DNA of 64,000 nt from a virus. Where the stretch lies: positions 1 to 64,000 of the IMG/VR virus record IMGVR_UViG_3300017917_002350; one strand, given 5' to 3'. Of the stretch, positions 15,020 through 34,931 are shown piece by piece; positions within the stretch are counted from its first letter, which is position 1; every line of letters begins with the position of its first letter. The notes below the pieces were generated by a model. The model was not told the origin of the DNA. It did not search any database and saw only the letters and a list, made by a program, of their open reading frames with translations. The translations under genes and the position numbers were made by a program.

Positions 15020-15503
15020 TGTAGCAAAAGGCGCAAATAGTTATGATGCTAACTTTGATAATTCACTAGTTGCTTTTTTTAATAAAAATGTTACACCATA
15101 TGCTACAGAAGTGGGTGGCCCTGCCTTTGATTTAATTCCAATAGAAAAACAGAAAGACATAATGGTCAACGTTGCTCGTATGCATGCCGAGCAAGAATAC
15201 AATCGAATTATGGATTTGGTTCGAGTATTACAAAAACAAGCAAACGAAATAAAACGTAGATTATATATCACAGATGCAGTTCATGCAGCTGAATACCAAT
15301 TTCAAGTTTATCACGGACAAACTTACTGGCTCTGTTTTGATACTAAAATAAACCGTACTAGATTGTGCCATCAAGGACCAAATGATTGGAGCACTGGTGC
15401 CCCAGACAGTTACCAATATATTACACGAGTAAAATGGTTAGGTGATTATACTTGGCAGGAAGTTACCACACAAACGTCTGACGATAGTACTCAACAATTT
15501 TAG
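14994..15503 (+). CDS. DUF2452-type protein
   Basis: 169 residues. The conserved order is VTPYATEVGGPAFDLIPIEKQK, then a long helix (EYNRIMDLVRVLQKQANEI), then AEYQFQVYHGQTYWL and a C-terminal GPNDWSTGAPDSYQYITRVKWLGDYTW block, characteristic of the DUF2452 family. Function is not known. It overlaps the desaturase by 26 bp and its 3' end overlaps the convergent sugar operon by 41 bp. Confidence 0.75.
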   Translation: MKKQKQKTNVAKGANSYDANFDNSLVAFFNKNVTPYATEVGGPAFDLIPIEKQKDIMVNVARMHAEQEYNRIMDLVRVLQKQANEIKRRLYITDAVHAAEYQFQVYHGQTYWLCFDTKINRTRLCHQGPNDWSTGAPDSYQYITRVKWLGDYTWQEVTTQTSDDSTQQF

Positions 15504-16404
15504 TCAACTCTTGGTTGAAATTTGCTTGTGGTTGCCAACCTAATTTACGTAATTTTTCATCATTGATAGCATATCTTACATCTTGCCCGGGCCTGACTAG
15601 ATCTGTGACATGTTCTGTGTATTCAAATTTAATATCAAAATTATCAAATATTTTTGCGACTACGTTTAAATTAGAATCTTCGTAATTGCCAGAAATATTA
15701 AATATATCATTTTTGGCACCCGATTGAATTATTGTATGTATTGCTTCGGCGGTGTCGCTTACATGCAGCCAAGTTCTGCGTGGTTTACCTTGGTCGTGTA
15801 AATCAATCTTCCTACCTAATTGAAGATATTTGATTGTTTTTGGAATCAGTTTTTCTACGTATTGACCGATGCCATAATTATTGGTTGGTCTTACAATAAC
15901 ATATGGAATATTAAATGTTCTAGCCCATGCCTGTACCAGCATGTCTGCGGCAGCCTTGGTGGCACTATAGGGATTGCTTGGTTTAAGGAGATCCGTTTCT
16001 ACATGTGCGCCTGTGACAATATCTCCGTACACTTCATCAGTGCTAAAATGAATCAAGATAGGCATGTTGAATCTACTTTTTTGTTGAATTAGATTTAACA
16101 AATGATGTACACCATTCACATTGCTTTTTAAGAATACATCTGATCCAACAATACTGTTATCTACATGTGTTTCCGCTGCGGTATTTACTACATAGTCACA
16201 ATCAACAAGTCTTTCAAGGTCGTTTATATCAGATTTAATATACTTAAATTGTGAATTTCGTTGAAATTCGTTTAAAAAATGCATATTACTGGCATAAGTT
16301 TCTCTATCTATGCCTAGTACATAGTGCCCTTCATTTAAAAGCTTGCGGGTAACCGCAGCACCAATTAAACCCAAACAACCAGTTACATATACAATTTTGT
16401 TCAT
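15463..16404 (-). CDS. dTDP/NDP-glucose 4,6-dehydratase-like SDR
   Basis: 313 residues. An extended SDR of the RmlB type that would turn an NDP-hexose into its 4-keto-6-deoxy form. TGCLGLIGAAV is the NAD-binding glycine motif. HFSTDEVYG carries the catalytic Thr-Asp-Glu, and NPYSATKAA has the YxxxK pair. Substrate-region features include RPTNNYG and RRTWLHVSD. It is the last gene of the ten-gene minus-strand operon and overlaps its neighbour by 4 bp (ATGA). The sugar nucleotide used cannot be told from sequence alone. A second member is at 27507. Confidence 0.85.
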   Translation of the reverse strand: MNKIVYVTGCLGLIGAAVTRKLLNEGHYVLGIDRETYASNMHFLNEFQRNSQFKYIKSDINDLERLVDCDYVVNTAAETHVDNSIVGSDVFLKSNVNGVHHLLNLIQQKSRFNMPILIHFSTDEVYGDIVTGAHVETDLLKPSNPYSATKAAADMLVQAWARTFNIPYVIVRPTNNYGIGQYVEKLIPKTIKYLQLGRKIDLHDQGKPRRTWLHVSDTAEAIHTIIQSGAKNDIFNISGNYEDSNLNVVAKIFDNFDIKFEYTEHVTDLVRPGQDVRYAINDEKLRKLGWQPQANFNQELTKIVEYYRQTFVW

Positions 16405-17141
16405 ATTTTTCCTAAAACTGCTAAAATCTTTAAGTCGTAATCAATCGCGGTATCTATTATATTGACGTTGTGCTTATTTAATAGTGCATGAAGTGACCGT
16501 TCTCTAAAGAAATTGATATGTTCGCCTATTACCATGTTTTCTGCGGGAGGTTCGCGGTATGCAGGAACCTCTATATATAAGTATTTTTTGGTTTTTTCTT
16601 TCAGCGCAACCACTAATTTATTAATATCAGACACATGTTCTAATACTTGACAGTTCATAACTAAATCAAATCGCTCATTACAATCTAATGAGTATTTGAG
16701 CACTCCTGCCATAGGCTCTACACCACTAACATCATATACAAATTTAACTGGTACATCGGGAATATAGGCGCCATTGTCACCGCCATAATCCAACACTGAG
16801 TATAAATCAGAAATATGTTTGTATACCAATGAATCAATGAATTCTTTTCTGCGATTTATGTAATCCAGCGAATATAATTGCTCTTTGTAAGTGGGTTCAC
16901 ATTGTTGACGCATTTGATTATATGTTTTATTGCGATATCCTTGATATAAATTTTGCATTTCATTATCGTCAAACCGTTGCAACGAAAAATAAAAATCACA
17001 AAAATCACAGCGGCATAACGTAGAATCAATATTACTTCCAGGATTGCTACCAGTGACACGCCAAATTACAAATTGAGATAATTGTGCAGGAAGCTGAACT
17101 GGAATACAATTACAACATGGGCAGTTTACTTGGTGGTACAT
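16401..17141 (-). CDS. SAM-dependent methyltransferase with N-terminal Cys cluster
   Basis: 246 residues from ATG 17141, which overlaps the preceding stop (TAATG); a seven-residue longer form has no signal. The N-terminus has CPCCNC and CRCDFC pairs, likely zinc-binding. The Rossmann core has VLDYGGDNGAYIPD (motif I), VSGVEPM, LVMNCQVLEHVSDINKL and a final GEHINFF block typical of Methyltransf_23 sugar methylases. Probably methylates an NDP-sugar or glycan in this operon's pathway. Confidence 0.8.
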   Translation of the reverse strand: MYHQVNCPCCNCIPVQLPAQLSQFVIWRVTGSNPGSNIDSTLCRCDFCDFYFSLQRFDDNEMQNLYQGYRNKTYNQMRQQCEPTYKEQLYSLDYINRRKEFIDSLVYKHISDLYSVLDYGGDNGAYIPDVPVKFVYDVSGVEPMAGVLKYSLDCNERFDLVMNCQVLEHVSDINKLVVALKEKTKKYLYIEVPAYREPPAENMVIGEHINFFRERSLHALLNKHNVNIIDTAIDYDLKILAVLGKI

Positions 17142-17890
17142 TACTGGGGCAAGACTCCGCAATCAACATTAATATTTTGTCCTGTTATAGCACTGGCTGC
17201 ACTACTTGCCAAGTAAACACATAGGTCGGCTACTTCTTTACCTGTTGGCAATCTACCTAGTGCTGATTGAGTTTTGGCAAAATCCTGCATCCATGTTATT
17301 GCATTATCGCCGCCGGGGGCATATTCACTTTCCAATGCAGTCATCAATCCAGGGGTTGGAATCAGCACAGGACATATACCGTTGACTCTAATACCTTTTG
17401 TACCAAGTTCTTTAGCCAAGGCCTGAGTCATACCATTCATTCCAAATTTGGTAGCTACATAAGCAGAGTTATTAGCTGTACCTCGTTTACCTGCTAAACT
17501 AGAAATATTGATGATACTGCCACCGTGTTGTAAGGCTGTTGCAGCAGCCTTTGCGCCCCAAAAAGCACCTTTGAGATTAGTAGCCAAGATATCATCCAAG
17601 AAATCATCATCGATGGCGTCAATTGGGCGCCACTCGGAATATCCGGCATTGTTGATATACGCATCAAGTCGACCAGTTCTGAGTATGGCATGATTCACAA
17701 TCATTTGATGATCGGTGGCCCGACGCACATCCATTGGAACATGATATATGTTCAACATAGACATTTCCATGTCTGATCTAGATCCCACGAACACCGTGTA
17801 GTTTTCTTGAGCAAAACGTAATGCTATCTCAAACCCAATACCTCTATTGCCTCCGGTTACAATAACCGTTTTCTTTATATTGTTTGGCAT
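17141..17890 (-). CDS. short-chain dehydrogenase/reductase (classical SDR) 1
   Basis: 249 residues. It has the classical SDR layout: TGGNRGIG cofactor motif, NNAGYS, INISSLAGKRG with the catalytic Ser region, and YVATKFG (YxxxK). The C-terminal end (GQNINVDCG) resembles 3-oxoacyl-ACP reductase-type SDRs. It overlaps the next SDR gene upstream by 16 bp. In this operon it probably reduces or oxidises a keto-sugar intermediate, by inference. Confidence 0.85.
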   Translation of the reverse strand: MPNNIKKTVIVTGGNRGIGFEIALRFAQENYTVFVGSRSDMEMSMLNIYHVPMDVRRATDHQMIVNHAILRTGRLDAYINNAGYSEWRPIDAIDDDFLDDILATNLKGAFWGAKAAATALQHGGSIINISSLAGKRGTANNSAYVATKFGMNGMTQALAKELGTKGIRVNGICPVLIPTPGLMTALESEYAPGGDNAITWMQDFAKTQSALGRLPTGKEVADLCVYLASSAASAITGQNINVDCGVLPQ

Positions 17891-18645
17891 GCAAATCCTC
17901 CATCCACAGTCAGTTCAGTGCCAGTAACAAAACTACTGGCATCACTAGCAAGGTAAACAGCAGCACCAATTAGTTCTTGCGGGTCTCCATAACGACGCAT
18001 TGGTGTATGGCCAAGGATAGCAGCTTCTCGCTCGGCAGTTATAAAATTTTTACGATTCCATTCAGTTGGAAAAAAGCCCGGACGAATGGCATTTACCCTT
18101 ACTCCTTGTGTGCCCCATTCTCTAGCTAGATTTTGGGTCAAGTTTACAATGCCGGCTTTGGCTACACTGTATGTAAATGCCTTACTTAGCGGCGGACCTG
18201 CACTAGCTGAACTGATATTGATTATATTGCCAGACCCTTTGTTGATCATGTGCCGCCCAAATACTTGACAACCAAACATGGTTCCTTTGAGTTGGCTGTT
18301 CATAATGCTATCCCATTCATGTTCAGTAATATCAAAAAAAGGAGTAGGGCCATTAATTCCAGCACCGTTGATTAAAACATCTGCTGATCCAAACTTATCA
18401 ACAACTTGTGATAAAACAGATTCATGCGATGATTTAATTGCAACATCTATAGCTAAAGCGAGTGTGCAATGGTATCCTTGGTCATTTATAATTTTTTCTA
18501 TACTTTGCGCTTTATCTAATCTTAAATCACAAATGGTTACAGATTTTGCACCAGACTGGGCCAAGCCGATTGCCAGGGTACCGCACAAATAGCCACCGGC
18601 TCCGGTAATAACAATATTTTTATTGGATATATCAAATAGGTTCAT
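17875..18645 (-). CDS. short-chain dehydrogenase/reductase (classical SDR) 2
   Basis: 256 residues. TGAGGYLCG cofactor motif, an acidic ICDLRLDK stretch favouring NAD(H), NGAGING, NISSASAGPP and YSVAKAG (YxxxK), with the end GTELTVDGGF. Similar SDRs occur in sialic/legionaminic and other nonulosonate clusters, where they reduce keto-sugars. It overlaps both neighbours (16 and 14 bp), showing tight coupling. Exact substrate unknown. Confidence 0.85.
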   Translation of the reverse strand: MNLFDISNKNIVITGAGGYLCGTLAIGLAQSGAKSVTICDLRLDKAQSIEKIINDQGYHCTLALAIDVAIKSSHESVLSQVVDKFGSADVLINGAGINGPTPFFDITEHEWDSIMNSQLKGTMFGCQVFGRHMINKGSGNIINISSASAGPPLSKAFTYSVAKAGIVNLTQNLAREWGTQGVRVNAIRPGFFPTEWNRKNFITAEREAAILGHTPMRRYGDPQELIGAAVYLASDASSFVTGTELTVDGGFACQTI

Positions 18646-19438
18646 TATAAGTTTTTAAATTGTATTCTAGTCCTAGTAATTGTACAGGTAATTCGCTTAG
18701 TTTACGACCATTGCCAGTATAACGATTACCGCCTTCAGATTCAATTCTGTAATGTGGTTCCAAGTTATTAAGTTCTACAAATTGTTTAATTACCTGGCTA
18801 ATTTTGTATTTTTTCAAATATACTGCATTTATATCTTTTGTTGAAGTTGTGTTTTCTACAAAATAATGTACAGTGGAACACAAATCCTTGATACCAAAAT
18901 AATCAAATTCTCTATCGTTGATTATGACCAATGGATTTTTCTTGTTAGATAATAAAAATCTTGGGAAAATTCTTGTGGCTATTTCACCGGCACCAAAACA
19001 ATTAAAAATTCTAATGGTGTGAAAATTATCAGTATCCCACACAATTCTACTTTTCATATTTTGTCCGAATCCATAACTGTCAGCGGGTAATACATCAAAT
19101 ATCTGCTCTTCGCTAAACTGATTGATATCTTGAGTTCTATCAAACTCTGCACCAGAACTGAGATTAATAAACTTTTTAAACATGTGTCTATTATTGTAGA
19201 AATTCATAAACAATCCTAAATTGTTTCTGGTGTCATCTAATAGAACATCATTTTTCATTGTGGTTGCGGCGTTTATAACAACATCAAATTTGCAATGTTG
19301 TAACCATGCTTTAACTAAAACAGGATTCAACAAATCAATTTGTTGTCTGGTAATGCGATCTACTGTGTGTGTTTTTTGTAAATAGTTGGACAAACTAGAC
19401 CCAATAAAACCATTCGCACCAAGAACGGCAATTTTCAT
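18632..19438 (-). CDS. NAD-dependent epimerase/dehydratase family protein
   Basis: 268 residues. An extended SDR with GANGFIGSSL, VINAAT and INLSSGAEF. The usual YxxxK motif is altered: the region reads SYGFGQNMKS, with Lys seven residues after Tyr, so catalysis may differ or be lost. The substrate-binding part is IRIFNCFGAGE. It resembles RmlD/WbpV-like sugar-nucleotide reductases/epimerases. It is separated by 1 bp from the FkbM gene upstream and overlaps the SDR downstream by 14 bp. Confidence 0.75.
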   Translation of the reverse strand: MKIAVLGANGFIGSSLSNYLQKTHTVDRITRQQIDLLNPVLVKAWLQHCKFDVVINAATTMKNDVLLDDTRNNLGLFMNFYNNRHMFKKFINLSSGAEFDRTQDINQFSEEQIFDVLPADSYGFGQNMKSRIVWDTDNFHTIRIFNCFGAGEIATRIFPRFLLSNKKNPLVIINDREFDYFGIKDLCSTVHYFVENTTSTKDINAVYLKKYKISQVIKQFVELNNLEPHYRIESEGGNRYTGNGRKLSELPVQLLGLEYNLKTYNEPI

Positions 19439-19439
19439 A

Positions 19440-20522
19440 TCAGTTAGGAATAGCGTAGAATACAGCTTCGAAGCTGTTGTTGTCGTGTTGTCTTATGTAA
19501 AAACTGTAATCGTCGACCAATTGGTTGACCAACAATGGTAATTCCCACATGTCACCAGGTTTATGATACATGGCCATACTGATTACAGGTCGACAGCGTT
19601 TTAATAAATTGGCCGAACCACGTAATGCATCTGCTTCGCTGCCTTCTATGTCTAATTTAACAAAATCAATCTGTTGTTTAGGAAACAAAGAGTCCAAGGA
19701 TGATGCTTCTATTTTGATATCGCCGTGATCAGTAGCTGCACTGCTGGGTCCTACGCCGCTGGCAAATGTAATAGTTTTTGTTTGATCAGACAATGCTAAC
19801 GGATAGCAAATGGCATTGTCTCCTGCTGCCAGAGTCAATCTGCCAAAGTTTTTTGGATCAGGTTCAAACAAGTGAGCTGTATTAATTTTTACTGCCGCCA
19901 TAGCTTCTTGATAACTGTCACCTGTGTATGCACCGCCATCAACAATGTTGATTGCTCGTTTACCAAAAGATTTTAAACTCAGCTGGTTAAAGTAATGCTG
20001 GTCTTTACTACGGTAATCGGCATATTCAGGAAGATTGCCTGTACGAAACAACAACACATTGAGTAAACAATCAACGCTTTCTTGATCGGCTAGTATTTGA
20101 ACAGCTGACTGTATTTTACTCAAATTGTCGGTAATGTAATTTAATGGAGTGAGCCAGTACCGCCAGCCTAATTGTTTTTCAAATTGAGCATACAGTTCCC
20201 ATGGCATAAAGATTTTATCAAACCCAGCGTTGTGTGCCTCATTTATTATTTTTGTGTACGAAGTCATGTGACTGAACACACCCATCGCCAGCTGGGCATT
20301 TTCCCAAGTAACATCCTGCCAGCCCACTACAGGCAAATCCAGCAACGTGGTTCCTTTGGGATCGGACACAACAAAACCATAGATTTGAAAACCTTCATCG
20401 AGTAACACTTGTCCTAGCGCACGAGCAAATCCTCCTGCACCAAAAATCCAAACAGGCACACTTTGATCTAAATTGTCAAAGTGACCATACGAAACTGTTT
20501 TTGCAAAACTATCAAAATCCAT
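19440..20522 (-). CDS. FkbM-family methyltransferase with N-terminal Rossmann domain
   Basis: 360 residues in two parts. The N-terminal VWIFGAGGFARALGQVL...VVSDPKG is a PglD-like nucleotide-sugar-binding fold. The C-terminal half is an FkbM methyltransferase: NIVDGGAYTGDSYQEAM (motif I), LFEPDPKNFGRL and VKLDIEGSEADALRG. FkbM enzymes O-methylate sugars and other hydroxyls. Only one base separates its start from the stop of the ThDP gene. The fusion suggests recognition and methylation of a nucleotide-linked or glycan sugar. Confidence 0.85.
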   Translation of the reverse strand: MDFDSFAKTVSYGHFDNLDQSVPVWIFGAGGFARALGQVLLDEGFQIYGFVVSDPKGTTLLDLPVVGWQDVTWENAQLAMGVFSHMTSYTKIINEAHNAGFDKIFMPWELYAQFEKQLGWRYWLTPLNYITDNLSKIQSAVQILADQESVDCLLNVLLFRTGNLPEYADYRSKDQHYFNQLSLKSFGKRAINIVDGGAYTGDSYQEAMAAVKINTAHLFEPDPKNFGRLTLAAGDNAICYPLALSDQTKTITFASGVGPSSAATDHGDIKIEASSLDSLFPKQQIDFVKLDIEGSEADALRGSANLLKRCRPVISMAMYHKPGDMWELPLLVNQLVDDYSFYIRQHDNNSFEAVFYAIPN

Positions 20523-20523
20523 G

Positions 20524-22362
20524 TCAATCCTTTATAATGTTTTGTTCCATTTCTGCATCTGGTAAGAATGGACTCATGTATTCTAGACTAGGCGCCAACA
20601 AACTACCATCTTCTAACTTGCGAGCCGCAAGTTTTGGTGCAAACATTTGCTCAGGATCTACCATGACTTCGATTATAGCAGGTTCAAGATTGTTCAGCAA
20701 CATCTGCACCATGTCACTGTTCCATGCATCCATGGTAGAAACTCTACATGACATTATACCTAATGCGACTCCTAATGAAACAAAATTAGGTAAGGATACT
20801 CCGTCTTTAGGACTGGTACCAAACACATTGTCTGAGAAATATGCTCGCTGTGTTTGTTTGATTGAATGATATCCTTCGTTATTTACAATGATAATTTTCA
20901 CCGGCAAGTGATATCCCACAACAGTTTGCAATTCTTGCAAGTTCATCATGATGCTACCATCGCCGGCAATACAATAAACTGGTTTTCTGGCAGCAATACA
21001 GGCACCAATAGCAGCAGGCAAATCATAGCCCATGCTGGCATTGCCACTGTTGCTGTAGAATCTTTGTCCTGCTTTGAGTTTACCGGACTGACCACTAATA
21101 ACACTGGCACTGCCATTACCACACACAACAACAGCATCTGAATTCAATTTGTTAAAAAAATCTTCAAAGAACAAATAGGGATTGAGAGTATCTTGTTTGT
21201 GCTGGTATTCGGGCAACACAGGATCGTATTTGGCTACACGCTCTCTACACCAATGCAAATAATTCACATGCTCTGGGAGTATTTTCCAATGATCCAGTGA
21301 TAAAAGTAAAGCTGGAATAAAATCTTTGAGATCACAATAAACCTTGTAATCAATATTGAGAGTAGGTTTGTCAAGTTCAGCACGATCAATGTCAACCATG
21401 ACTTTGTATGCATTCCGCGCAAAGTTTTTGTAATTGTAACTGATCATTCTAATATTCAATCTACTGCCTAGCACCAACACAAAATCTGCATTCTGTACTG
21501 CAAAGTTTCCAGCGCGATCACCAACCATCCCGGGATGACCGGCATATAACGGATGGTCATTGGTCAAGGTGTCATAGGCATTAAAACTAGTAACCACCGG
21601 AATTTGCAGTTTTTCTACCAATGAAAGAAATTCTTTATGCATACCAGACAATCTAACTCCGGTTCCAGCGTATATTATAGGTCTTTTTGCTGTTGCTAGT
21701 TTGGCAAGAATTTTTCTAATATCGCCATGGAGGTTGTTTTTTGGTTCTAAAAGTTCTACTCTGGTATTGTCAGTGATACCAGGATCTTGACCTAACAAAC
21801 CAGTCGACCCATTCCATCCTTGAAGAAGCTTTGGATTTATATCTTTTGATTGAATGTCAATAGGAATATCAACCCATACCGGCCCCGGTCTTCCGTTGGT
21901 AGCTAAAAATATAGCTTTGTCCATTACCTCTTTAATAGAAAAAGGGTCAGTAACAGTTACCGCATATTTTACAATAGGTCTAGCCATACTCACAATATCA
22001 ACTTCTTGATCTCCAAGTTGTCGCATGGGTATGTTATAATTGCGCAAGTAAGTTTCATTTTTGACCTGTCCGCTAATTACCAACATACCACAACTGTCTA
22101 CATAGGCACCAAACACACCATTGAGTGCATTGATACCACCAGGACCTGTGGTAACATTAAGCACACATAATTGATTATTGATACGATAATAACTTTCGGC
22201 CGCAATAGCTGCTGCCTGTTCGTGATGGAAACACACAGGTGTCATATCAGGATGACGACCAAAAGCATCGTTTAAATGCATGGCACCTCCGCCGGTGACC
22301 AAAAAGGTATGGCGGGCGCCTGCATCCACGCATCTTTGCGCTACATAATCGGCTAATCTCAT
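20524..22362 (-). CDS. acetolactate-synthase-like ThDP-dependent enzyme
   Basis: 612 residues, full-length for the family. The N-terminal PYR domain has the catalytic Glu48 in FHHEQAAAIAAE. The middle is a Rossmann-like domain (PIIYAGTGVRLSG). The C-terminal PP domain has GDGSIMMNLQELQT followed by IIIVNN, the ThDP/Mg motif. True acetolactate synthase would sit with amino-acid genes. Here the neighbours make sugars, and the known parallel is YerE/AviB1, which transfer a two-carbon acetyl unit from pyruvate to a 4-keto sugar. This role is inference from context. It overlaps the NeuB-like gene by 4 bp. Confidence 0.85.
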   Translation of the reverse strand: MRLADYVAQRCVDAGARHTFLVTGGGAMHLNDAFGRHPDMTPVCFHHEQAAAIAAESYYRINNQLCVLNVTTGPGGINALNGVFGAYVDSCGMLVISGQVKNETYLRNYNIPMRQLGDQEVDIVSMARPIVKYAVTVTDPFSIKEVMDKAIFLATNGRPGPVWVDIPIDIQSKDINPKLLQGWNGSTGLLGQDPGITDNTRVELLEPKNNLHGDIRKILAKLATAKRPIIYAGTGVRLSGMHKEFLSLVEKLQIPVVTSFNAYDTLTNDHPLYAGHPGMVGDRAGNFAVQNADFVLVLGSRLNIRMISYNYKNFARNAYKVMVDIDRAELDKPTLNIDYKVYCDLKDFIPALLLSLDHWKILPEHVNYLHWCRERVAKYDPVLPEYQHKQDTLNPYLFFEDFFNKLNSDAVVVCGNGSASVISGQSGKLKAGQRFYSNSGNASMGYDLPAAIGACIAARKPVYCIAGDGSIMMNLQELQTVVGYHLPVKIIIVNNEGYHSIKQTQRAYFSDNVFGTSPKDGVSLPNFVSLGVALGIMSCRVSTMDAWNSDMVQMLLNNLEPAIIEVMVDPEQMFAPKLAARKLEDGSLLAPSLEYMSPFLPDAEMEQNIIKD

Positions 22363-23465
22363 AATCCTCGATTTTTTATTAAATTTTTTAGTGAAGCGTT
22401 GGTTGCATATGGACCATCAATATGATCAATAGTCAGTGGTTCATCAGCACGAATAGCCTGCGTAAGGGTTTCGCCGTTCATTATTTCTCTACAGCTGAGT
22501 TGTCCTTTACGCAAAGGAATAGCAAGATAAAAGTCCTTTTCAAAACTGTCTTTGTGGATACGGTATCCGGGTTCTAGGTCTCGTTTGGCATAAGCACCAC
22601 GCACCAATTGATCAAGATACTCTGTTTCTTTTTTACTAATAACGCGACGAGTGTTGCTACGACCGCCGCACATTTCAATGGCCTTATGATAGGCTTTGAA
22701 CCATGTATCACACTGTTCGGGCAACGAGCAATACGAACTGACCGGAACTCCATTGTAATCAATGTCGATGTGTCGTTCCCAAGTTCTGGCACCTTTGGCA
22801 TATGAAATCAACATACTGGAACTCCAATTGTGATATTCATGTGTGCTAAGGCCAATCACATTGTCGCGATAGCGATTGCGTAAGTAATCAATTTGGTCCA
22901 ATTCTAATTCATTATCCTCACTGGGATACAAACTCACACAATGATTGATAGCCAATGGAATATCTCTATTGGCAAAATAAGCCACAATGTCATCTAGGTC
23001 CTTTTCGCTGGCACCACCCGAACTGATAATAGTGGGGCGACGAGTACTGGCGATTTTGCTGATCAAAGGCCAATCGTTTACATCGCTACTGGCAATTTTG
23101 ATAATTGGCATGTCAAATTCAACGCATAGATCCACACTCTTTTCGTCAAATGGTGTACTCATAGGAATACAGCTCATGTCACGAATTTTGTTAACCATGA
23201 CAGCAAAGTCATCTCTGCTGAGTTTGGTCTGTTCGGTTTTCTTGATATATCTATTGTCTTGATCACCTTTAAACTCCGGATGAATAAACTCATCTACATC
23301 TCTAAACTGTAGTTTAATGGCAGCTTTTACATTGTTGATCCGTGCAACGCTACCATGTTCGTAGATGATTTTGAGACCGCGTTCCACGCTGCCCCAGTGA
23401 TTGTTTGCTAATTCTAACACAAAGAGATTTTCAAATATCTCGTTGCCTTTTTTACGATATGACAT
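22359..23465 (-). CDS. NeuB-like nonulosonate synthase
   Basis: 368 residues. The N-terminal TIM-barrel resembles N-acetylneuraminate/legionaminate synthases, which condense phosphoenolpyruvate with a hexose. LELANNHWG matches the EIGxNHxG start motif. STPFDEKSVD, IKIASSDVNDWPL and TIISSGGAS follow the family order, and GARTWERHIDID replaces the usual EKHFTLD. The C-terminal 60-80 residues form a SAF (antifreeze-like) domain (YRIHKDSFE...RKGQLSCREIM). The product is probably a nine-carbon or related keto acid; the variant motif leaves the sugar open. Confidence 0.85.
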   Translation of the reverse strand: MSYRKKGNEIFENLFVLELANNHWGSVERGLKIIYEHGSVARINNVKAAIKLQFRDVDEFIHPEFKGDQDNRYIKKTEQTKLSRDDFAVMVNKIRDMSCIPMSTPFDEKSVDLCVEFDMPIIKIASSDVNDWPLISKIASTRRPTIISSGGASEKDLDDIVAYFANRDIPLAINHCVSLYPSEDNELELDQIDYLRNRYRDNVIGLSTHEYHNWSSSMLISYAKGARTWERHIDIDYNGVPVSSYCSLPEQCDTWFKAYHKAIEMCGGRSNTRRVISKKETEYLDQLVRGAYAKRDLEPGYRIHKDSFEKDFYLAIPLRKGQLSCREIMNGETLTQAIRADEPLTIDHIDGPYATNASLKNLIKNRGL

Positions 23466-23474
23466 ACTGTTTCC

Positions 23475-24794
23475 TTAAATGAATAAACTCATAAAGCCAT
23501 CAACTCGTTCACCAATATAGGCGATTTGTTCTGGCGTAATAACTGGACTGGTGCCATGGAAGTAGGTGTGCGTCATGGCATGTGTTGCGTTAGGGAAATC
23601 GTCCCTGGCCTGTTTTGGATCCATTAAATGACTGTAGGCAGGTTGCAGCATGATGTTGCCTGCAAAGTACGGACGAGTCTGAATCAGATTTTCTTCCAGA
23701 TAATCCACAATGTCTGCGCGAGCAAACGGAGCATCTTGACGCACAGTCAACGGAAAAGCAAACCACGACGGATCCGATTTGTTTTGAGCTCGTGGCAAGT
23801 GAAAAAACTCTTCATACTTGGCATAGATGTCAAACAGCAATTGATAATTGCGTCTGCGCAAGGCATGAATCTCCGGCAGCTTCTGCAACTGCTGCATGCC
23901 CATAGCACATTGTAATTCAATTGGTTTTAGATTGTAGCCAATTTCGTCATACACATACTTGTGATCAAATATTTCGCCGGGTAATTCTGGAATCCATTCT
24001 TGAAATCTGGTACCGCATGTGCCACATTTTAACTTGTTTGCATCTGGACCCACACAGTAGCAACCTCTGCCCCATTCTCTGAAACTGCGAAGAATAATTT
24101 CTTGATTGCGATCATCAGTGGCCACAAAGCCACCTTCGCCCATGGTCATGTGATGTGCAGGATAAAAACTGCAACTGGCCATTAGACCAAATGATCCCAG
24201 AGGCCGATCGTTGTATGTGCTGCCAAGGGCATCACAGCAATCCTCTAACAAAATCAATTTGTATCGTTCAACCAAGGACATGACTTGATCCATGTTAGGA
24301 GGGTTGCCTAACACATGTGCAAATGTTATGACCTTGATATGAGGATCATTTTGCAATTTTTGTTCTGCTTGTTCCAAATTGATGTTCAGTGTATCTAATT
24401 CTATATCTACAAAAACCGGTTCAAATCCCACTTGCAATGTGGGATTGAGTGTAGTAGGGAATCCAGCAATGGGCATCAATACTTTTGTACCCTTGCTAAA
24501 ATTGTAGCCGCGTTTACTTGTTAAACTGGCCATCATCAACAAGTTACTGCTACTGCCTGAGTTGGTAACAATACCGCCCTTTTTACCAAACTGTTTTGGG
24601 AACTCGCGTTCAAATCTTAAACTTTCGTCGCCCATGGCCAGCCAGCCTTTAAGCAGGCTTTCTACTCCGGCTACATATTCGTCGGAATTATAATAGGCAC
24701 CGGCATAGTTTACAAAGTCTTTGCCCGCTGTCCATGTTTTATTTGCTTGTTTTTGTTCTACATATTGTCGAACTTGATCTAGTATTTCTTTCAT
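23475..24794 (-). CDS. rfbH: CDP-4-keto-6-deoxyglucose 3-dehydrase (E1, RfbH-like)
   Basis: 439 residues (RfbH about 437). This DegT/DnrJ-fold enzyme uses PMP and a [2Fe-2S] cluster to remove the C3 hydroxyl of CDP-4-keto-6-deoxyglucose. The usual PLP lysine is replaced by His in SFYPAHHMTMGEGG, exactly as in E1. Cysteines in EDCCDAL and GRGCYCVG show C-X57-C-X1-C, the published E1 cluster spacing, followed by KCGTCGTRF. The last Cys spacing is longer than in E1. It overlaps the gene upstream by 4 bp. It marks the operon as making a 3,6-dideoxy or derived branched sugar. No E3 reductase is seen here. Confidence 0.88.
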   Translation of the reverse strand: MKEILDQVRQYVEQKQANKTWTAGKDFVNYAGAYYNSDEYVAGVESLLKGWLAMGDESLRFEREFPKQFGKKGGIVTNSGSSSNLLMMASLTSKRGYNFSKGTKVLMPIAGFPTTLNPTLQVGFEPVFVDIELDTLNINLEQAEQKLQNDPHIKVITFAHVLGNPPNMDQVMSLVERYKLILLEDCCDALGSTYNDRPLGSFGLMASCSFYPAHHMTMGEGGFVATDDRNQEIILRSFREWGRGCYCVGPDANKLKCGTCGTRFQEWIPELPGEIFDHKYVYDEIGYNLKPIELQCAMGMQQLQKLPEIHALRRRNYQLLFDIYAKYEEFFHLPRAQNKSDPSWFAFPLTVRQDAPFARADIVDYLEENLIQTRPYFAGNIMLQPAYSHLMDPKQARDDFPNATHAMTHTYFHGTSPVITPEQIAYIGERVDGFMSLFI

Positions 24795-25447
24795 TGAATT
24801 ATTTGAGATAACATTTGTTGAGCTAAAGGAATTCTACGTTCATTTGGGATACCGGGCCACTGGATTAAAAAGTCTCCGGGTTGCCATTGTCCGTCATTAC
24901 CAAAAATATCCCGTTTATAAACATGAGGAACTGATCCTGGATATTGATCGTAATCGTATGAATTGATTAAACGTTGAGGGACTATTTTTAATCCCGACCC
25001 CAATCGTTCAATGTTGTCAATCATACACTGCTGATCATTCCAAGGATGTTTCATACAGTATTGATCTTGGAGCGTATCTAAATATTTTAACCAATCAATG
25101 CAATTTTTTGTATTGTGTGCTAGATAGCTGTCATTGTTGATATTGAAGCAATCGGTTGCAATTATAAAATCAGAATCGTTGTCAACAATGTCTTCCAATC
25201 TAATCGTAAAATTGGTAATCATGGTATCACAGCCAACTGCATGTACCCAATCGTACCCAGACTCCAATAATTCAACTACTTTTCTGGTTCTGGCCCAGGC
25301 TATATCACCTAGATTGACAAAGCCATCTGTAACTTCATAGGTATCATATCCCCATTTTTTAGCATACAATTTTTTGTTCCGTTCCCAAGTTAGATCGGCT
25401 AACGGTTGATATGCCTCGTTGTAGGCAGTTACAAGTGCAAATTTCAA
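24791..25447 (-). CDS. GT34-like glycosyltransferase
   Basis: 218 residues, starting at TTG 25447 with AAGGA upstream. The opening KFALVTAYNEAY and WERNKKLYAKKWGYD, followed by WVHAVGCDTMITN (DxD-like metal site), HPWNDQQCMIDN and the final DFLIQWPG block, match the galactosyltransferase GMA12/MNN10 (GT34) fold. It would transfer a sugar from a nucleotide donor. It is the first gene of the minus-strand operon, 24 bases after the -10 box of the promoter at 25472-25501. Confidence 0.8.
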   Translation of the reverse strand: MKFALVTAYNEAYQPLADLTWERNKKLYAKKWGYDTYEVTDGFVNLGDIAWARTRKVVELLESGYDWVHAVGCDTMITNFTIRLEDIVDNDSDFIIATDCFNINNDSYLAHNTKNCIDWLKYLDTLQDQYCMKHPWNDQQCMIDNIERLGSGLKIVPQRLINSYDYDQYPGSVPHVYKRDIFGNDGQWQPGDFLIQWPGIPNERRIPLAQQMLSQIIQ

Positions 25448-25471
25448 TTGAATTCCTTGATAGTTGATGTT

Positions 25472-25501
25472 AGTATACTATTTAAGAAATCTTAAAGTCA
25501 A
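25472..25501 (-). promoter_or_regulatory. host-type promoter of the minus-strand sugar operon
   Basis: Read on the minus strand: TTGACT (25501-25496), an 18-bp spacer and TATACT (25477-25472). It lies in the 77-bp gap between divergent glycosyltransferase genes and drives the operon toward 15463. Confidence 0.6.
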
Positions 25502-25524
25502 ACATTTTTAAAATAAGTATCAAT

Positions 25525-27506: not shown

Positions 27507-28541
27507 ATGTCAAAAACAGTTCTAATTACCGGCGGTGCCGGATTCATTGCGCATCATGTTATAGATAAAATTTTACGCGACACCAGTTGGAAGATTGTGT
27601 GTTTGGATAGATTAGACATCTCCGGTAATCTTAATAGGCTGCACGATATGCTACAGGATCACGACCCAAAAATGGTTGCTGGTCGTCTGCGTATTGTGTT
27701 TCACGATCTTAAAGCAGAAATCAATAGCCAAATTGTTCACGATATTGGAAACATCGATATTGTGCTGCATCTTGCGGCCGGCAGTCATGTAGATCGCAGT
27801 ATTCAATACCCAATGGAGTTTGTGCAGGACAACGTAGTAGGTACAGTAAATTTATTAGACTATGCAAGGAAGAACTTACCTAATCTGGAAAAGTTTGTAT
27901 ACTTTTCCACCGACGAGATATTTGGGATTGCACCTGTTGGTGTATCATATAAGGAGTATGATAGATATAACAGCACAAATCCATACTCCGCGTCTAAGGC
28001 GGCTGCCGAAGAGTTTTGTGTGGCATATGAAAACACTTACAAGTTGCCTATTGTTGTTACGCACACTATGAATGTATTTGGTGAGCGGCAACATCCGGAG
28101 AAGTTTATTCCAGCAACTATTCAGAAAGTAAGAGATGGTGAAACGGTCATCATACACAGTGATCCGACGAGAACCGTGGCTGGTTCTCGAATGTACATCC
28201 ATGCCCGTGATGTTGCTGAGGGTCTTATGTTCATACTCGGCCTCAAGGATTATCGTCACACAGGAGACTATGGCCACGCCCACTGCCCGAAGTTTAATCT
28301 TGTTGGTACTGAAGAAATTGACAATCTTACCCTTGCACAGATGATCGCAACAGCAGTAGGTAAAGAATTAAAATACGAAATGACAGACTTTCATACCAGC
28401 CGTCCAGGGCACGACATGCGTTATGCACTAGATGGTGGATTACTAAAGAGCTTGGGTTGGGAGCCAAAAATTAAATTGAGTGAGCGTATCAACGAAATGG
28501 TACAATGGACACTAGCAAATGAAAGATGGTTGCGTAAATGA
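27507..28541 (+). CDS. NDP-glucose 4,6-dehydratase (RmlB-like)
   Basis: 344 residues, full-length. TGGAGFIAHHV (NAD motif), LHLAAGSHVDRSI, the YFSTDEIFG catalytic triad region, NPYSASKAAAE (YxxxK), NVFGERQHPEKFIP and the final SRPGHDMRYALD block are the RmlB landmarks. It would make an NDP-4-keto-6-deoxyhexose. GAGGA precedes the ATG. It has higher similarity to classical RmlB than the shorter paralog at 15463. Gene 28538 overlaps its stop by 4 bp. Confidence 0.9.
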   Translation: MSKTVLITGGAGFIAHHVIDKILRDTSWKIVCLDRLDISGNLNRLHDMLQDHDPKMVAGRLRIVFHDLKAEINSQIVHDIGNIDIVLHLAAGSHVDRSIQYPMEFVQDNVVGTVNLLDYARKNLPNLEKFVYFSTDEIFGIAPVGVSYKEYDRYNSTNPYSASKAAAEEFCVAYENTYKLPIVVTHTMNVFGERQHPEKFIPATIQKVRDGETVIIHSDPTRTVAGSRMYIHARDVAEGLMFILGLKDYRHTGDYGHAHCPKFNLVGTEEIDNLTLAQMIATAVGKELKYEMTDFHTSRPGHDMRYALDGGLLKSLGWEPKIKLSERINEMVQWTLANERWLRK

Positions 28542-29249: not shown

Positions 29250-30461
29250 ATGAAAAACTGTACAGAATTAAAAGCATGTTTGGCTTGCGGCGGAACACAC
29301 TTGTTACCTGCAATTGATTTGGGCGATCAACCACTAGCTAACAATTTCTTAAAAGACACCAGCGAAAATCAAAGGTATCCACTGGCAGTAAATCAGTGTG
29401 CCAATTGTTTTCATTTGCAACTAACTCATGTGGTTGACCCAGCAGTGATTTATAGAGATTATGCATACGTTAGTGGAACCAGCCAGACCTATCTAGATTA
29501 CATGTTTTGGTTTGCTAAATGGGTAAGAGAGTATAGTAAAATACAGTTTGGAAGCATATTAGATATTGGGTGCAACGATGGAAGTCAATTGGATTATTTT
29601 GAAAAATTAGGATTTCTTACTTATGGAGTAGATCCAGCAGAAAACTTACATTCAATCAGCACTAATAAAGGTCACCGAGTAGTATGTGGATTTTGGGACG
29701 AACAATCTATAGGGAATCTGGACAACAGGCAATTTGATATAGTAGTGGCGCAAAATAGCTTTGCTCACAACCCAGATCCACATAAGTATCTTACATTATT
29801 AAAGCCTCTTATGAAGCCCAGTGGACTGTTTTTTGTTCAAACCAGCCAAGCAGACATGGTACGTAACGGCGAATTTGACACAATCTATCACGAACATGTG
29901 AATTTCTACAATATCAACTCCATGAACGAGTTGTGTCGGCGAGCTGGGTGGGAATTGATAGATGTAATTAAAACACCTATTCACGGAACTAGTTATGTGT
30001 TTGTGCTAACTCCTGGTCGTAGTCGTCGCGAACACATTGCAAATTTAATAAGCATGGAAGCAGACTTGTTGAACAACGACGTATATCGTGCGTGGGCTGC
30101 TCGAGCTAGAAAAATTTCTAGTGAATTTAGTTCTAGAATTACACTGTTTAAAGAACGCGGATATCATATTGTAGGCTATGGCGCGGCAGCCAAAGGAATG
30201 ACATTGTTGAATTTTGCTAATGTTCAACTGGATTACATTATCGACGACAATCCAATCAAACAAGGGACGTATAGTCCGGGACAAAATATTCCTGTTGTGT
30301 CTATTGCACAGTTATCAAATTATACCGTTGATGATAAAATTTTATTTGTCCCACTGGCATGGAATTTTTTTAAAGAAATAAAAAACAAAATATTAAATCA
30401 TAGAAACAATACCAATGATCGTTTTTTAAAATATTTTCCGGAGGTTGAAGTTGGAGTTTAA
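29250..30461 (+). CDS. sugar C-methyltransferase-like protein
   Basis: 403 residues in the three-part TylC3/NovU layout. An N-terminal zinc domain (CLACGG, IDLGDQPLANNF, NQCANC), a SAM-binding Rossmann core (ILDIGCNDGSQL, YGVDPAEN, VVAQNSFAHNPDP, YHEHVNFY) and a C-terminal domain with GYGAAAKGMTLLNF and IDDNPIKQG. These enzymes add a methyl to C3 or C5 of NDP-4-keto-6-deoxy sugars. That fits the dehydratase encoded just upstream. Confidence 0.88.
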   Translation: MKNCTELKACLACGGTHLLPAIDLGDQPLANNFLKDTSENQRYPLAVNQCANCFHLQLTHVVDPAVIYRDYAYVSGTSQTYLDYMFWFAKWVREYSKIQFGSILDIGCNDGSQLDYFEKLGFLTYGVDPAENLHSISTNKGHRVVCGFWDEQSIGNLDNRQFDIVVAQNSFAHNPDPHKYLTLLKPLMKPSGLFFVQTSQADMVRNGEFDTIYHEHVNFYNINSMNELCRRAGWELIDVIKTPIHGTSYVFVLTPGRSRREHIANLISMEADLLNNDVYRAWAARARKISSEFSSRITLFKERGYHIVGYGAAAKGMTLLNFANVQLDYIIDDNPIKQGTYSPGQNIPVVSIAQLSNYTVDDKILFVPLAWNFFKEIKNKILNHRNNTNDRFLKYFPEVEVGV

Positions 30462-32705: not shown

Positions 32706-33451
32706 TATATAGACACTCAGGAACATTTGGCGATTTAATTTACAGCCTAAGTGTAGTTAAAAAAATGGGCGGCGGTACATTTGCTGTGCATCTTGAAAAT
32801 ATAGAAAAGTGCGTGGCTCAGTATGGATATAGACCCGATGAAGTAGATCCTGCACATAAGGGCAGATTAAAAATTAGAGATTTTGATTTGTTGAGACCTT
32901 TGTTAGCCAGACAAAGCTATATTGACCAAGTGACAGTTTGGTTGGGTGATCACGATGTGGATCTAGATCGATTCCGTGGTGTGTTGTTCAGAGGATTTGA
33001 AGGCAATTATGTAGAAGCATACTATCGAACATTTAATTTGCCATTTACTACAGATGTTTACAATGAAACTTGGTTGGAAGCAGATGCAAAACGAGTAGCA
33101 CCTGTTGTGATCAACAGAACATTTAGATACCGTTGCCCTGCAGGCACCGGCACATGGCAAAGTCTGCTAGAGCAGGCCAATATCACACAGAACGGTGTGT
33201 TTGTTGGTAATAAAGACGAGCACGAAGATTTTGAGAAAAGCACAGGATTCAGTGTACAATATTATGCTGTGCAAAACTTTAAAGAATTAGCTGATGTGAT
33301 TGCAGGTGCAGATTTGTTTATGGGCAATCAAAGTGCTGCATTTAGTATTGCAATGGGACTTGGTAAAAGTTCTGTACTAGAAACAATTAAAATTAAACCG
33401 TTAGCAAACAATGAGTGCTATTTCCCAAGACCCAACTGCCAATACTTCTAA
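32702..33451 (+). CDS. GT9-like glycosyltransferase-fold protein
   Basis: 249 residues, ATGA-coupled to the GT9 gene. The start HSGTFGDLIYSLSVVKKMGGG parallels the GT9 acceptor-domain glycine loop, and VIAGADLFMGNQSAAFSIAMGLG parallels the donor-site loop (G-N-Q-S in place of D-S-G-P). It may be a second transferase or a non-catalytic partner. The C-terminal 40 bp overlaps the kinase gene. Confidence 0.65.
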   Translation: MIYRHSGTFGDLIYSLSVVKKMGGGTFAVHLENIEKCVAQYGYRPDEVDPAHKGRLKIRDFDLLRPLLARQSYIDQVTVWLGDHDVDLDRFRGVLFRGFEGNYVEAYYRTFNLPFTTDVYNETWLEADAKRVAPVVINRTFRYRCPAGTGTWQSLLEQANITQNGVFVGNKDEHEDFEKSTGFSVQYYAVQNFKELADVIAGADLFMGNQSAAFSIAMGLGKSSVLETIKIKPLANNECYFPRPNCQYF

Positions 33452-34184
33452 AGTGCGAATACTTTTGATTGGCGATAATGGAGTTGATCAATATCAATAC
33501 GGCACTGTGACCAGAATCAGTCCCGAAGCGCCTGTGCCTGTGGTCAATTACACGCATACGATTGTTAAACCTGGAATGGCCGCAAATGTCAAAGACAATT
33601 TAGAAACACTAGGGTGCGAAGTTGAATTCGTACACGGGATCAAAACAAGTATCAAGACTAGAATAATAGATTCAAGAACCAAACAACATCTAGTAAGGAT
33701 AGATCAAGATGCACCTAGTCGTGCCGTAAAAATTGACTATAACAACATAGAGCAGTATAATTGTATTATTGTAAGTGACTACAACAAAGGATCAGTGGAG
33801 TATGAAACGATTGAAAATCTTCGCAAGAATTACTCGGGTCCAATATTTGTTGATACGAAGAAAAGCGACTTGGCCCGCTTCGAAGGCTGTTTCGTTAAAA
33901 TCAATCAGGTGGAATTTGAAGCGGCTAAAACATATCCTACTGATCTTATTGTTACCCTTGGGCGAGACGGTGTACGATATAAAGAACACAAGTTTTCTAC
34001 TCCACAAGTAGAGGCGTTTGATGTATGCGGGGCAGGTGATACTTTCTTGTCTGCTCTCGCATACAACTACGTTTTATCACAAGATATTACAACTGCGATT
34101 CAATTTGCAACTCGAGCAGCCAGTGTCACAGTACAACACATTGGTGTGTATAGCCCAACATTAGAAGAAATAGAACAGTCATGA
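33411..34184 (+). CDS. hldE: PfkB-family kinase, HldE/RfaE N-domain-like
   Basis: 257 residues. A ribokinase-fold sugar kinase resembling the heptose-7-phosphate kinase half of HldE. The family stretch GTVTRISPEAPVPVVNYT appears near residues 28-45, GMAANVKDNL follows, and GAGDTFLSALAY (207-218) holds the catalytic Asp. It is shorter than the E. coli domain (about 318). It would make heptose-1,7-bisphosphate. Start at ATG 33411 overlaps the previous gene by 41 bp; the first 14 residues are variable and an internal start is possible. Confidence 0.82.
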   Translation: MSAISQDPTANTSKVRILLIGDNGVDQYQYGTVTRISPEAPVPVVNYTHTIVKPGMAANVKDNLETLGCEVEFVHGIKTSIKTRIIDSRTKQHLVRIDQDAPSRAVKIDYNNIEQYNCIIVSDYNKGSVEYETIENLRKNYSGPIFVDTKKSDLARFEGCFVKINQVEFEAAKTYPTDLIVTLGRDGVRYKEHKFSTPQVEAFDVCGAGDTFLSALAYNYVLSQDITTAIQFATRAASVTVQHIGVYSPTLEEIEQS

Positions 34185-34549
34185 CTAGATTAACAGGACA
34201 AGTTGAAAAAGGGTGGGGATCAGAATTGATCTGGGCCACCAACGATCAATATTGTGGCAAGATGATGAATTTCAATCAAGGCGCACGATTTAGTATGCAT
34301 TTTCATCGCGAGAAAGATGAAACTTGGTATGTGCTTGGTGGCAAATTTATTGTTAAATGGATTGATACTAAAAGTGCAACACAGTACGAACAAGAATTAA
34401 AACAAGGGGATACTTGGCACAATCCACCTTGTATGCCGCATCAGCTAATTTGCATAGAACAAGGTACTGTAATAGAAGTTTCCACACCAGATTCAGTAGA
34501 GGACAATTATCGTGTACAGCCCGGGGATAGCCAGAAGAGTATTAGTTAA
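34181..34549 (+). CDS. cupin, sugar-phosphate isomerase-like
   Basis: 122 residues. A single small beta-barrel of the cupin family. FSMHFHREKDETWYVLGG holds the metal-binding histidines and Glu, and LKQGDTWHNPPCMPHQL the second motif. Cupins of this length next to HldE-like genes are annotated as phosphomannose isomerase-like or of unknown role. It is ATGA-coupled to the kinase and overlaps the nucleotidyltransferase by 38 bp, so it is probably part of heptose precursor processing. Confidence 0.75.
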   Translation: MTRLTGQVEKGWGSELIWATNDQYCGKMMNFNQGARFSMHFHREKDETWYVLGGKFIVKWIDTKSATQYEQELKQGDTWHNPPCMPHQLICIEQGTVIEVSTPDSVEDNYRVQPGDSQKSIS

Positions 34550-34931
34550 CGGTACTTTTGATATATTGCATCGTGGGCATATTGAGATGCTAAACTTTGC
34601 ACGAAGTCAAGGTACTTATTTGTTAGTGGCAATTGACAGTGATCGTCAAGTCAAGGAACTAAAAGGCCAATCAAGACCAATCAACAATCAAGAAGATCGT
34701 AAGTTTGCATTAGATAATTTACAAGCTGTTGATGCTGTTTGGATTTTTGACACACAAGCAGAATTAGAACACATTTGTAAAGTGTATCGACCAGATTTAA
34801 TGGTAAAAGGCAGTGATTATCTTGGTAAAAAAATTACCGGGTCGCAGTATTGTGGCAATATTAAATACTATCCGTTAGTACAAAACTATTCGACAAGTAA
34901 AATAATTGAAAATATTAATAACCGGAAGTAG
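34512..34931 (+). CDS. rfaE2: heptose-1-phosphate nucleotidyltransferase (HldE C-domain-like)
   Basis: 139 residues from GTG 34512 (no internal ATG upstream of the core). RRVLVNGTFDILHRGHIEML contains the HxGH motif at residues 20-23. DRQVKELKG and SRPINNQEDR follow as in RfaE2, and LMVKGSDY is also conserved. It would join heptose-1-phosphate to AMP. With the separate kinase upstream it reconstitutes split HldE. A second, interrupted protein of the same superfamily lies at 11323. Confidence 0.82.
   Translation: MYSPGIARRVLVNGTFDILHRGHIEMLNFARSQGTYLLVAIDSDRQVKELKGQSRPINNQEDRKFALDNLQAVDAVWIFDTQAELEHICKVYRPDLMVKGSDYLGKKITGSQYCGNIKYYPLVQNYSTSKIIENINNRK

Follow-up and report, generated by a model that had tools for sequence, protein, structure and literature searches.

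A ten-gene operon on the minus strand of a 64,000-base stretch of viral DNA (bases 1–64000 of the 70,722-base IMG/VR virus record IMGVR_UViG_3300017917_002350; hereafter, the window) probably directs the synthesis of an activated C4-branched 3,6-dideoxyhexose and its transfer to a glycan. The predicted pathway centers on an iron–sulfur 3-dehydrase of the E1 (RfbH) type, a YerE-like thiamine diphosphate (ThDP) enzyme that would add an acyl branch at C4, and a NeuB-like phosphoenolpyruvate (PEP)-dependent synthase that would make the donor of this branch. At the sequence level, the identity of E1, the class of the ThDP enzyme, and the operon are established.

Since the record encodes a large terminase, UvsX, a single-stranded DNA-binding protein, and UvsW-like and DnaB-like helicases, it represents a T4-like phage. 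Nearly all genes in the window are on the plus strand, the exception being a minus-strand block at 15463–25447 with negative GC skew, in which ten sugar genes are closely packed, many overlapping by a few bases:

24791–25447, minus strand: GT34-like glycosyltransferase (Pfam), whose gene starts the operon, the predicted sugar-transferring enzyme
23475–24794, minus strand: E1/RfbH-type nucleotide-4-keto-6-deoxyhexose 3-dehydrase, pyridoxamine 5′-phosphate (PMP) and [2Fe-2S] (H214, C187/C245/C247/C260)
22359–23465, minus strand: NeuB-like PEP-dependent synthase of the 3g8r subfamily, predicted maker of a 4-hydroxy-2-oxo acid donor
20524–22362, minus strand: YerE-like ThDP (probably also flavin adenine dinucleotide) ketone-branching carboligase (HHEQ, GDG...NN, NNxGY, T504)
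19440–20522, minus strand: FkbM-family methyltransferase with an N-terminal NeuD-like Rossmann segment, putative tailoring enzyme
18632–19438, minus strand: RmlD/epimerase-type extended short-chain dehydrogenase/reductase (SDR), putative tailoring or reduction enzyme
17875–18645, minus strand: classical SDR oxidoreductase, possible branch-ketone reductase
17141–17890, minus strand: classical SDR oxidoreductase, possible branch-ketone reductase
16401–17162, minus strand: S-adenosylmethionine methyltransferase (PF13489)
15463–16404, minus strand: RmlB-like nucleoside diphosphate (NDP)-glucose 4,6-dehydratase of the deoxythymidine diphosphate (dTDP)-glucose type (Asp-Glu couple, YxxxK), predicted source of the E1 substrate

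An earlier note on this DNA had singled out the E1 (23475–24794), NeuB-like (22359–23465), and acetolactate-synthase-like ThDP (20524–22362) genes, with SDRs and methyltransferases following in the same operon. All of these are present on the minus strand as it described; Pfam confirmed the NeuB-like and ThDP family identities, and the operon, which continues down to 15463, also includes the RmlB-like dehydratase. The T4-type late promoter core ATAAATA was not found at the operon start (25448–25524), and its frequency across the window was not above chance.

The DegT-like protein has the cofactor site of E1

Every sequence test identifies the DegT-like protein encoded at 23475–24794 as an E1/RfbH dehydrase. 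It scored 445 bits against the NCBIfam RfbH equivalog model (cut-off, 423 bits) and aligned over its full length with Yersinia E1 (PDB 3bcx). His-214 occupies the position of the pyridoxal 5′-phosphate (PLP) lysine and matches His-220 of 3bcx, and Cys-187, Cys-245, Cys-247, and Cys-260 match Cys-193, Cys-251, Cys-253, and Cys-261 of its solved cofactor site. The histidine and the spacing Cys187-X57-Cys245-X1-Cys247 are the features from which the earlier note had called this protein an E1 rather than an aminotransferase, an assignment that these comparisons bear out; the fourth ligand, Cys-260, follows after X12 (X7 in Yersinia E1). The histidine was kept in all 189 relatives (150 viral and 39 bacterial), and the four cysteines in 139/139 viral relatives of the Fe-S type and 39/39 bacterial relatives; eleven viral relatives retained the histidine and lacked the cluster cysteines, as in ColD. 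Because the RfbH cut-off was passed and the four cysteines were invariant among relatives, the assignment is not due to chance. An AlphaFold model of E1 generated from viral and bacterial relatives (predicted local distance difference test score, 92) had 3bcx as its best match (template modeling (TM)-scores, 0.88/0.92), with ColD and aminotransferases scoring lower.

E1 was found in 37 of 398 sampled Pseudomonadota genomes, the nearest copies being just 43–44% identical to the window E1, whereas the best 80 viral copies were 77–90% identical; the viral E1s therefore look like a lineage held by viruses. Viral copies also have extra cysteines, C208 in 139 of 150 and C257 in 119, neither of which occurs in the bacterial copies. 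The phage additionally encodes IscU (record positions 65582–65968; 215.6 bits against a cut-off of 192.4) and an IscA/A-type carrier (65952–66278), so that this one phage carries Fe-S assembly genes, several radical SAM proteins, and the Fe-S enzyme E1.

The ThDP enzyme groups with YerE-like carboligases

Compared with PDB entries, the ThDP enzyme scored 384 bits with JanthE (8rph), 233 with 5ahk, which we take to be PpYerE, and 207 with acetolactate synthase isozyme 1 (Escherichia coli IlvB, 6lpi). In a 77-protein tree, which had long branches and from which Yersinia YerE itself was left out, JanthE fell into one group with the window enzyme and most of the viral and bacterial proteins related to it, with a Shimodaira–Hasegawa approximate likelihood-ratio test (SH-aLRT) support of 100, and 5ahk and two long-branched viral sequences joined this group next (SH-aLRT, 99). 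IlvB, IlvG, IlvI, and the catabolic synthases fell outside, the split from these acetohydroxyacid synthases (AHAS) and acetolactate synthases being supported at 99, so the phylogenetic comparison proposed in the earlier note came out on the YerE side. The group includes bacterial ThDP genes located in rfbF–rfbG–rfbH clusters. The enzyme has the ThDP-binding motif GDG...NN; HHEQ replaces RHEQ at the catalytic Glu (E48), NNxGY replaces NNxxL, and Thr-504 replaces the Trp/Gln of acetolactate synthases. The nearest NCBIfam models were acetolactate synthases, with a score well short of the cut-off (325 versus 538 bits). Tree and site pattern place this apparent acetolactate synthase with the YerE-like ketone-branching enzymes and not with the true acetolactate synthases. 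The YerE-like group is the sole subclass of the decarboxylase family known to use isolated ketones (PMC12247030).

Among 50,697 phage-isolate records, no clear YerE-like ThDP enzyme was detected; the best matches had ~30% identity, those with an annotation were named acetolactate synthases, and several of these records were bacterial contigs. A JanthE-type CDG motif replaced GDG in 21 of 82 viral ThDP proteins, and two of these proteins (L045 and L054) fell in the JanthE subgroup. In several phages the YerE-like enzyme is naturally split, with the N and M domains and the C domain encoded by overlapping or adjoining genes (L170:12480-14227, L182:12483-14236, L193:12004-13757, L196:11325-13075, and L223:4593-6364). 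In another set of loci (L061, L063, L064, L067, L068, L070, L071, L075, and L076, and also L072), a ColD-like 3-dehydrase with the histidine and without the Fe-S cysteines adjoins the YerE-like gene, possibly representing a guanosine diphosphate (GDP)-sugar version of the pathway.

The NeuB-like protein is a candidate donor synthase

The NeuB-like and ThDP genes share 4 nucleotides. By fold and by sequence, the NeuB-like protein was nearest to 3g8r from Chromobacterium violaceum (TM-scores of the predicted structure, 0.84/0.92; 34% identity in the structural match). Judged against a published list of NeuB active-site residues (PMC6795526), the PEP/Mn site is retained (E18, T104, F106, K123, S126, Y180, S207, H209, E230, and H232). 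K51 and Q53 were invariant. The acceptor pocket is altered (N74D, E134D, N184S, and D247S); E134, D247, and H236 are presumably active-site positions of NeuB. The protein also missed the cut-offs of curated nonulosonate synthase models (114 versus 340 and 104 versus 400 bits), and the cytidine monophosphate (CMP)-transferase NeuA (PF02348) was absent in 21/21 viral records, all of which are fragments. A nonulosonic acid pathway was rejected on the lack of NeuA in these fragments, the changed acceptor pocket, and the missed cut-offs.

The NeuB and ThDP genes overlapped or came into near contact in every viral pair, in two gene orders, and bacterial pairs lay on one strand with a spacing from overlap to <3 kb. 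Among 20 NeuB-anchored bacterial loci, an adjoining ThDP gene was present in 15, E1 in 11, and RfbF with RfbG in nine; an acetolactate synthase was found near NeuB in none. Eight Chromobacterium genomes carried 3g8r relatives in rfbF–rfbG–rfbH–neuB–ThDP operons, which suggests a role for 3g8r, a structure released in 2009, as well. The overlap of the NeuB-like and ThDP genes and the lack of a CMP-transferase make a bystander role of the NeuB-like enzyme unlikely; it probably supplies a longer 2-oxo acid as the donor.

Putative donor-making genes are exchanged beside the ThDP gene

Given the NeuB–ThDP pairing, ThDP loci without NeuB would be expected to carry another 2-oxo-acid-making enzyme, and many do. 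Such viral loci carry an acetaldehyde dehydrogenase with a 4-hydroxy-2-oxovalerate aldolase (DmpG), a ketopantoate hydroxymethyltransferase (PanB), or an HpcH/HpaI aldolase. Exactly one of the four donor families was present in 53 of the 82 viral ThDP loci (NeuB, 19; PanB, 17; DmpG-type aldolase, 10; HpcH/HpaI, 7), none in 29, and two kinds in no locus. The 80 bacterial loci contained HMGL-type (17), NeuB (14), or HpcH/HpaI (11) genes, two kinds in one case, and none in 37. When E1 loci were divided by the presence of a ThDP gene, donor families appeared in 10/47 with the gene and in 0/33 without it. On the ThDP tree (95 labeled rows), the donor type switched at least 10 times.

NeuB, PanB, 4-hydroxy-2-oxovalerate aldolase, and HpcH/HpaI family enzymes all yield 4-hydroxy-2-oxo acids. 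This is the donor class that ErwE prefers (PMC12247030) and of which JanthE accepts one member (PMC12188165). Since four exchangeable families make the donor class used by ErwE and JanthE, the branch probably exceeds an acetyl group in length and depends on which donor gene has been swapped in.

In some loci (L033, L059, L175, L229, and L019), DJ-1/PfpI and/or cupin (mannose-6-phosphate isomerase-like) genes adjoin the ThDP gene and possibly form a further donor-making module. At L170:11317-12483, E1 and the split ThDP gene flank a class I/II aminotransferase that could supply a 2-oxo acid.

Supply of the sugar nucleotide and electrons

Gene neighbors were counted in 80 viral and the 80 closest bacterial loci carrying ThDP relatives and, separately, in 80 E1-anchored viral loci. 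The bacterial ThDP loci contained E1 in 42/80, RfbF in 36/80, and RfbG in 36/80. Near the viral ThDP genes, E1 or its ColD-like relative was found in 64/80 loci, an RmlB-like dehydratase in 42/80, and RfbF or RfbG in 0/80. The E1-anchored viral loci carried RmlB in 70/80 and a ThDP gene in 47/80. A search of the rest of the phage for rfbF, rfbG, and an E3 reductase, suggested in the earlier note, found none of them in the 70.7-kb record, which is a fragment (PF00483, PF00111, and PF00175 were absent), nor did this fragment contain a sugar nucleotidyltransferase, a ferredoxin-like domain, a ferredoxin reductase, or a flavodoxin. Both a supply of cytidine diphosphate (CDP)-glucose inside the virus (no RfbF, RfbG, or nucleotidyltransferase) and an E3, ferredoxin, or flavodoxin of the phage's own (none in the record) were rejected.

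The window RmlB-like protein has STDEVYG, containing an Asp-Glu couple, and YSATK, matching YxxxK, and its ten best PDB matches are all named dTDP-glucose dehydratases. The Asp-Glu couple occurred in 109/111 viral RmlB-like copies and Asp-Lys in 36/36 bacterial RfbG proteins. Asp-Lys is found in CDP-glucose dehydratases, and Asp-Glu in dTDP-glucose or uridine diphosphate N-acetylglucosamine (UDP-GlcNAc) dehydratases (PMC8987622). In SpnQ, a [2Fe-2S] 3-dehydrase acting on a dTDP sugar, general reductases replace E3 (PMC8987622). Because of the Asp-Glu RmlB, the lack of RfbF, RfbG, E3, and electron carriers, and the SpnQ precedent, we infer a dTDP-sugar route in which dTDP-glucose and electrons would be taken from the host.

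Proposed pathway and its alternatives

In the predicted pathway, the RmlB-like enzyme would convert a host NDP-glucose, most likely dTDP-glucose, into the 4-keto-6-deoxy sugar, as its family and catalytic residues suggest. E1, whose cofactor site is evident from its residues, would then strip the C3 hydroxyl using PMP and the [2Fe-2S] cluster, with host ferredoxin or flavodoxin reductases taking the place of a dedicated E3. The NeuB-like enzyme would couple PEP with an aldehyde to give a 4-hydroxy-2-oxo acid, which the YerE-like enzyme, classed by phylogeny, would decarboxylate before transferring the acyl unit onto the ketone at C4, which would become a tertiary alcohol bearing a 3-hydroxyacyl branch. 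The SDRs and methyltransferases would reduce and methylate this product and the glycosyltransferase would transfer the sugar. The nucleotide, electron source, NeuB aldehyde, branch length, tailoring order, and destination of the product (the surface of the host, the virion, or elsewhere) are the predicted elements of this scheme.

Several observations weigh against this pathway. The RmlB-like protein scored below the dTDP-glucose dehydratase cut-off (302 versus 365 bits), and the Asp-Glu couple also occurs in UDP-GlcNAc dehydratases, so that the assignment of its nucleotide to dTDP is tentative; as the record is a 70.7-kb fragment, the absent genes may lie elsewhere. No donor family was near 29/82 viral and 37/80 bacterial ThDP loci, which may use pyruvate, and some bacterial NeuB–ThDP pairs had no E1 within reach, making other acceptors possible. 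Because the donor families were named after the neighbors had been viewed, and because related phages do not count as independent cases, the donor counts are descriptive and carry no test statistic. The lack of a donor maker in those 29 viral loci also fits a plain yersiniose-type pathway, in which the product of E1 receives a pyruvate-derived acetyl group through the ThDP enzyme, and the NeuB-like enzyme serves the same glycan by making a separate, unrelated sugar acid; YpYerE uses pyruvate (PMC12247030) and JanthE accepts it (PMC12188165). We consider this pathway unlikely, however: in every viral pair, whichever the order, NeuB contacts the ThDP gene, the CMP-transferase was found in 0/21 viral records, and PanB, DmpG, or HpcH/HpaI replaces NeuB at the same place, never together with it.

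It is improbable, too, that the pathway uses CDP-sugars like that of Yersinia, drawing on the rfbF, rfbG, and E3 products of a 3,6-dideoxyhexose-making host, while the RmlB-like enzyme serves another sugar. The structurally solved E1 acts on a CDP sugar and the bacterial ThDP relatives sit in rfbF–rfbG–rfbH clusters, but viral E1 is accompanied by an RmlB-like gene in 70/80 loci and never by RfbG, and any E1 at all was present in just 37/398 Pseudomonadota genomes, so a phage could rarely rely on such a host pathway. A role for the ThDP enzyme as a viral acetolactate synthase in host valine/isoleucine synthesis, with coincidental neighbors, is hardly credible. The nearest NCBIfam models of the enzyme point that way, yet far under their cut-off, and an amino-acid role was rejected on the tree and site pattern, which place it outside the AHAS enzymes, and on the lack of a ketol-acid reductoisomerase (KARI) in the record; its homologue adjoins E1 or a ColD-like relative in 64/80 viral loci. 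Of the parallel with yersiniose drawn in the earlier note, the pairing of E1 with a YerE-like enzyme stands. Its CDP sugar gives way to the predicted dTDP route, since rfbF, rfbG, and E3 were missing from the record and related viruses and an Asp-Glu dehydratase was found instead; its acetyl branch is unlikely because the NeuB-like gene probably makes a longer donor. With these two details revised, the interpretation as a whole is supported.

Relation to known systems

As in the yersiniose pathway of Yersinia pseudotuberculosis (E1/E3 and YerE), E1 is followed by a YerE-class ThDP enzyme predicted to branch the C4 ketone; the phage module differs in lacking rfbF, rfbG, and E3, in having a dTDP-glucose-type dehydratase and a NeuB-like gene, and in being virus-borne. 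ErwE (erwiniose) and MMAR_2332 (caryophyllose) belong to the same YerE-like class and use 4-hydroxy-2-oxo acids with chains longer than that of pyruvate (PMC12247030); in the phage, a NeuB-type PEP synthase is the predicted source of the donor. JanthE from Janthinobacterium is the closest solved ThDP enzyme, but the window protein has the canonical GDG and falls in a separate subgroup of the tree. SpnQ (spinosyn forosamine) likewise is a [2Fe-2S] PMP 3-dehydrase that acts on a dTDP sugar with general ferredoxin/flavodoxin reductases (PMC8987622); its substrate is a 2,6-dideoxy sugar, whereas the phage protein fits the RfbH/E1 model. Among isolated phages, cyanophage S-H68 (MK016663) has a sugar cluster in which a dTDP-glucose 4,6-dehydratase and an E1 are annotated, but this E1 is just 40% identical to that of the window and no ThDP or NeuB gene is annotated.

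Other sugar and metabolic genes of the phage

On the plus strand, a second NDP-hexose 4,6-dehydratase with the Asp-Glu couple (27507–28541) and a sugar C-methyltransferase (29250–30461) perhaps form a second unusual sugar route. A heptose module consists of a split HldE kinase, an HldE nucleotidyltransferase, and an HldD-like epimerase (33411–34184, 34512–34931, and 34906–35691). The gene at 36438–37613 encodes a BhcA-like aspartate–glyoxylate aminotransferase (600 bits against a cut-off of 650), an unusual metabolic gene for a phage.

Implications

Branched 3,6-dideoxy sugars are rare components of bacterial surface glycans. Viral rfbH has already been listed among auxiliary genes (PMC11295528, PMC10653327) and viral ilvB as an amino-acid gene (PMC8226683), and a 2025 review named viruses among the unexplored places for YerE-like enzymes (PMC12247030). 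In the literature searched, outside of which most subscription papers fell, we found no description of a viral YerE-like pathway, of the donor-swap pattern, or of a donor-synthase role in sugar branching for NeuB relatives.

We see about an even chance that these loci represent a modular phage system, with a fixed core (RmlB-type dehydratase, E1, and YerE-like ThDP enzyme acting on dTDP-sugars) and one exchangeable donor enzyme that sets the side chain. If so, a one-gene swap would alter the surface or virion glycan, and the NeuB-like family would be donor synthases for sugar branching. The donor-swap pattern offers a directly testable rule by which branch structures could be predicted and points to a use for the functionally unassigned NeuB-like structure 3g8r, and the cassette is a source of candidate biocatalysts for tertiary alcohols, including the naturally split YerE-like enzymes. 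If the proposed pathway is correct, viral “acetolactate synthase” and “sialic acid synthase” genes would be misannotated parts of a glycan-diversifying cassette present in >100 viral contigs.

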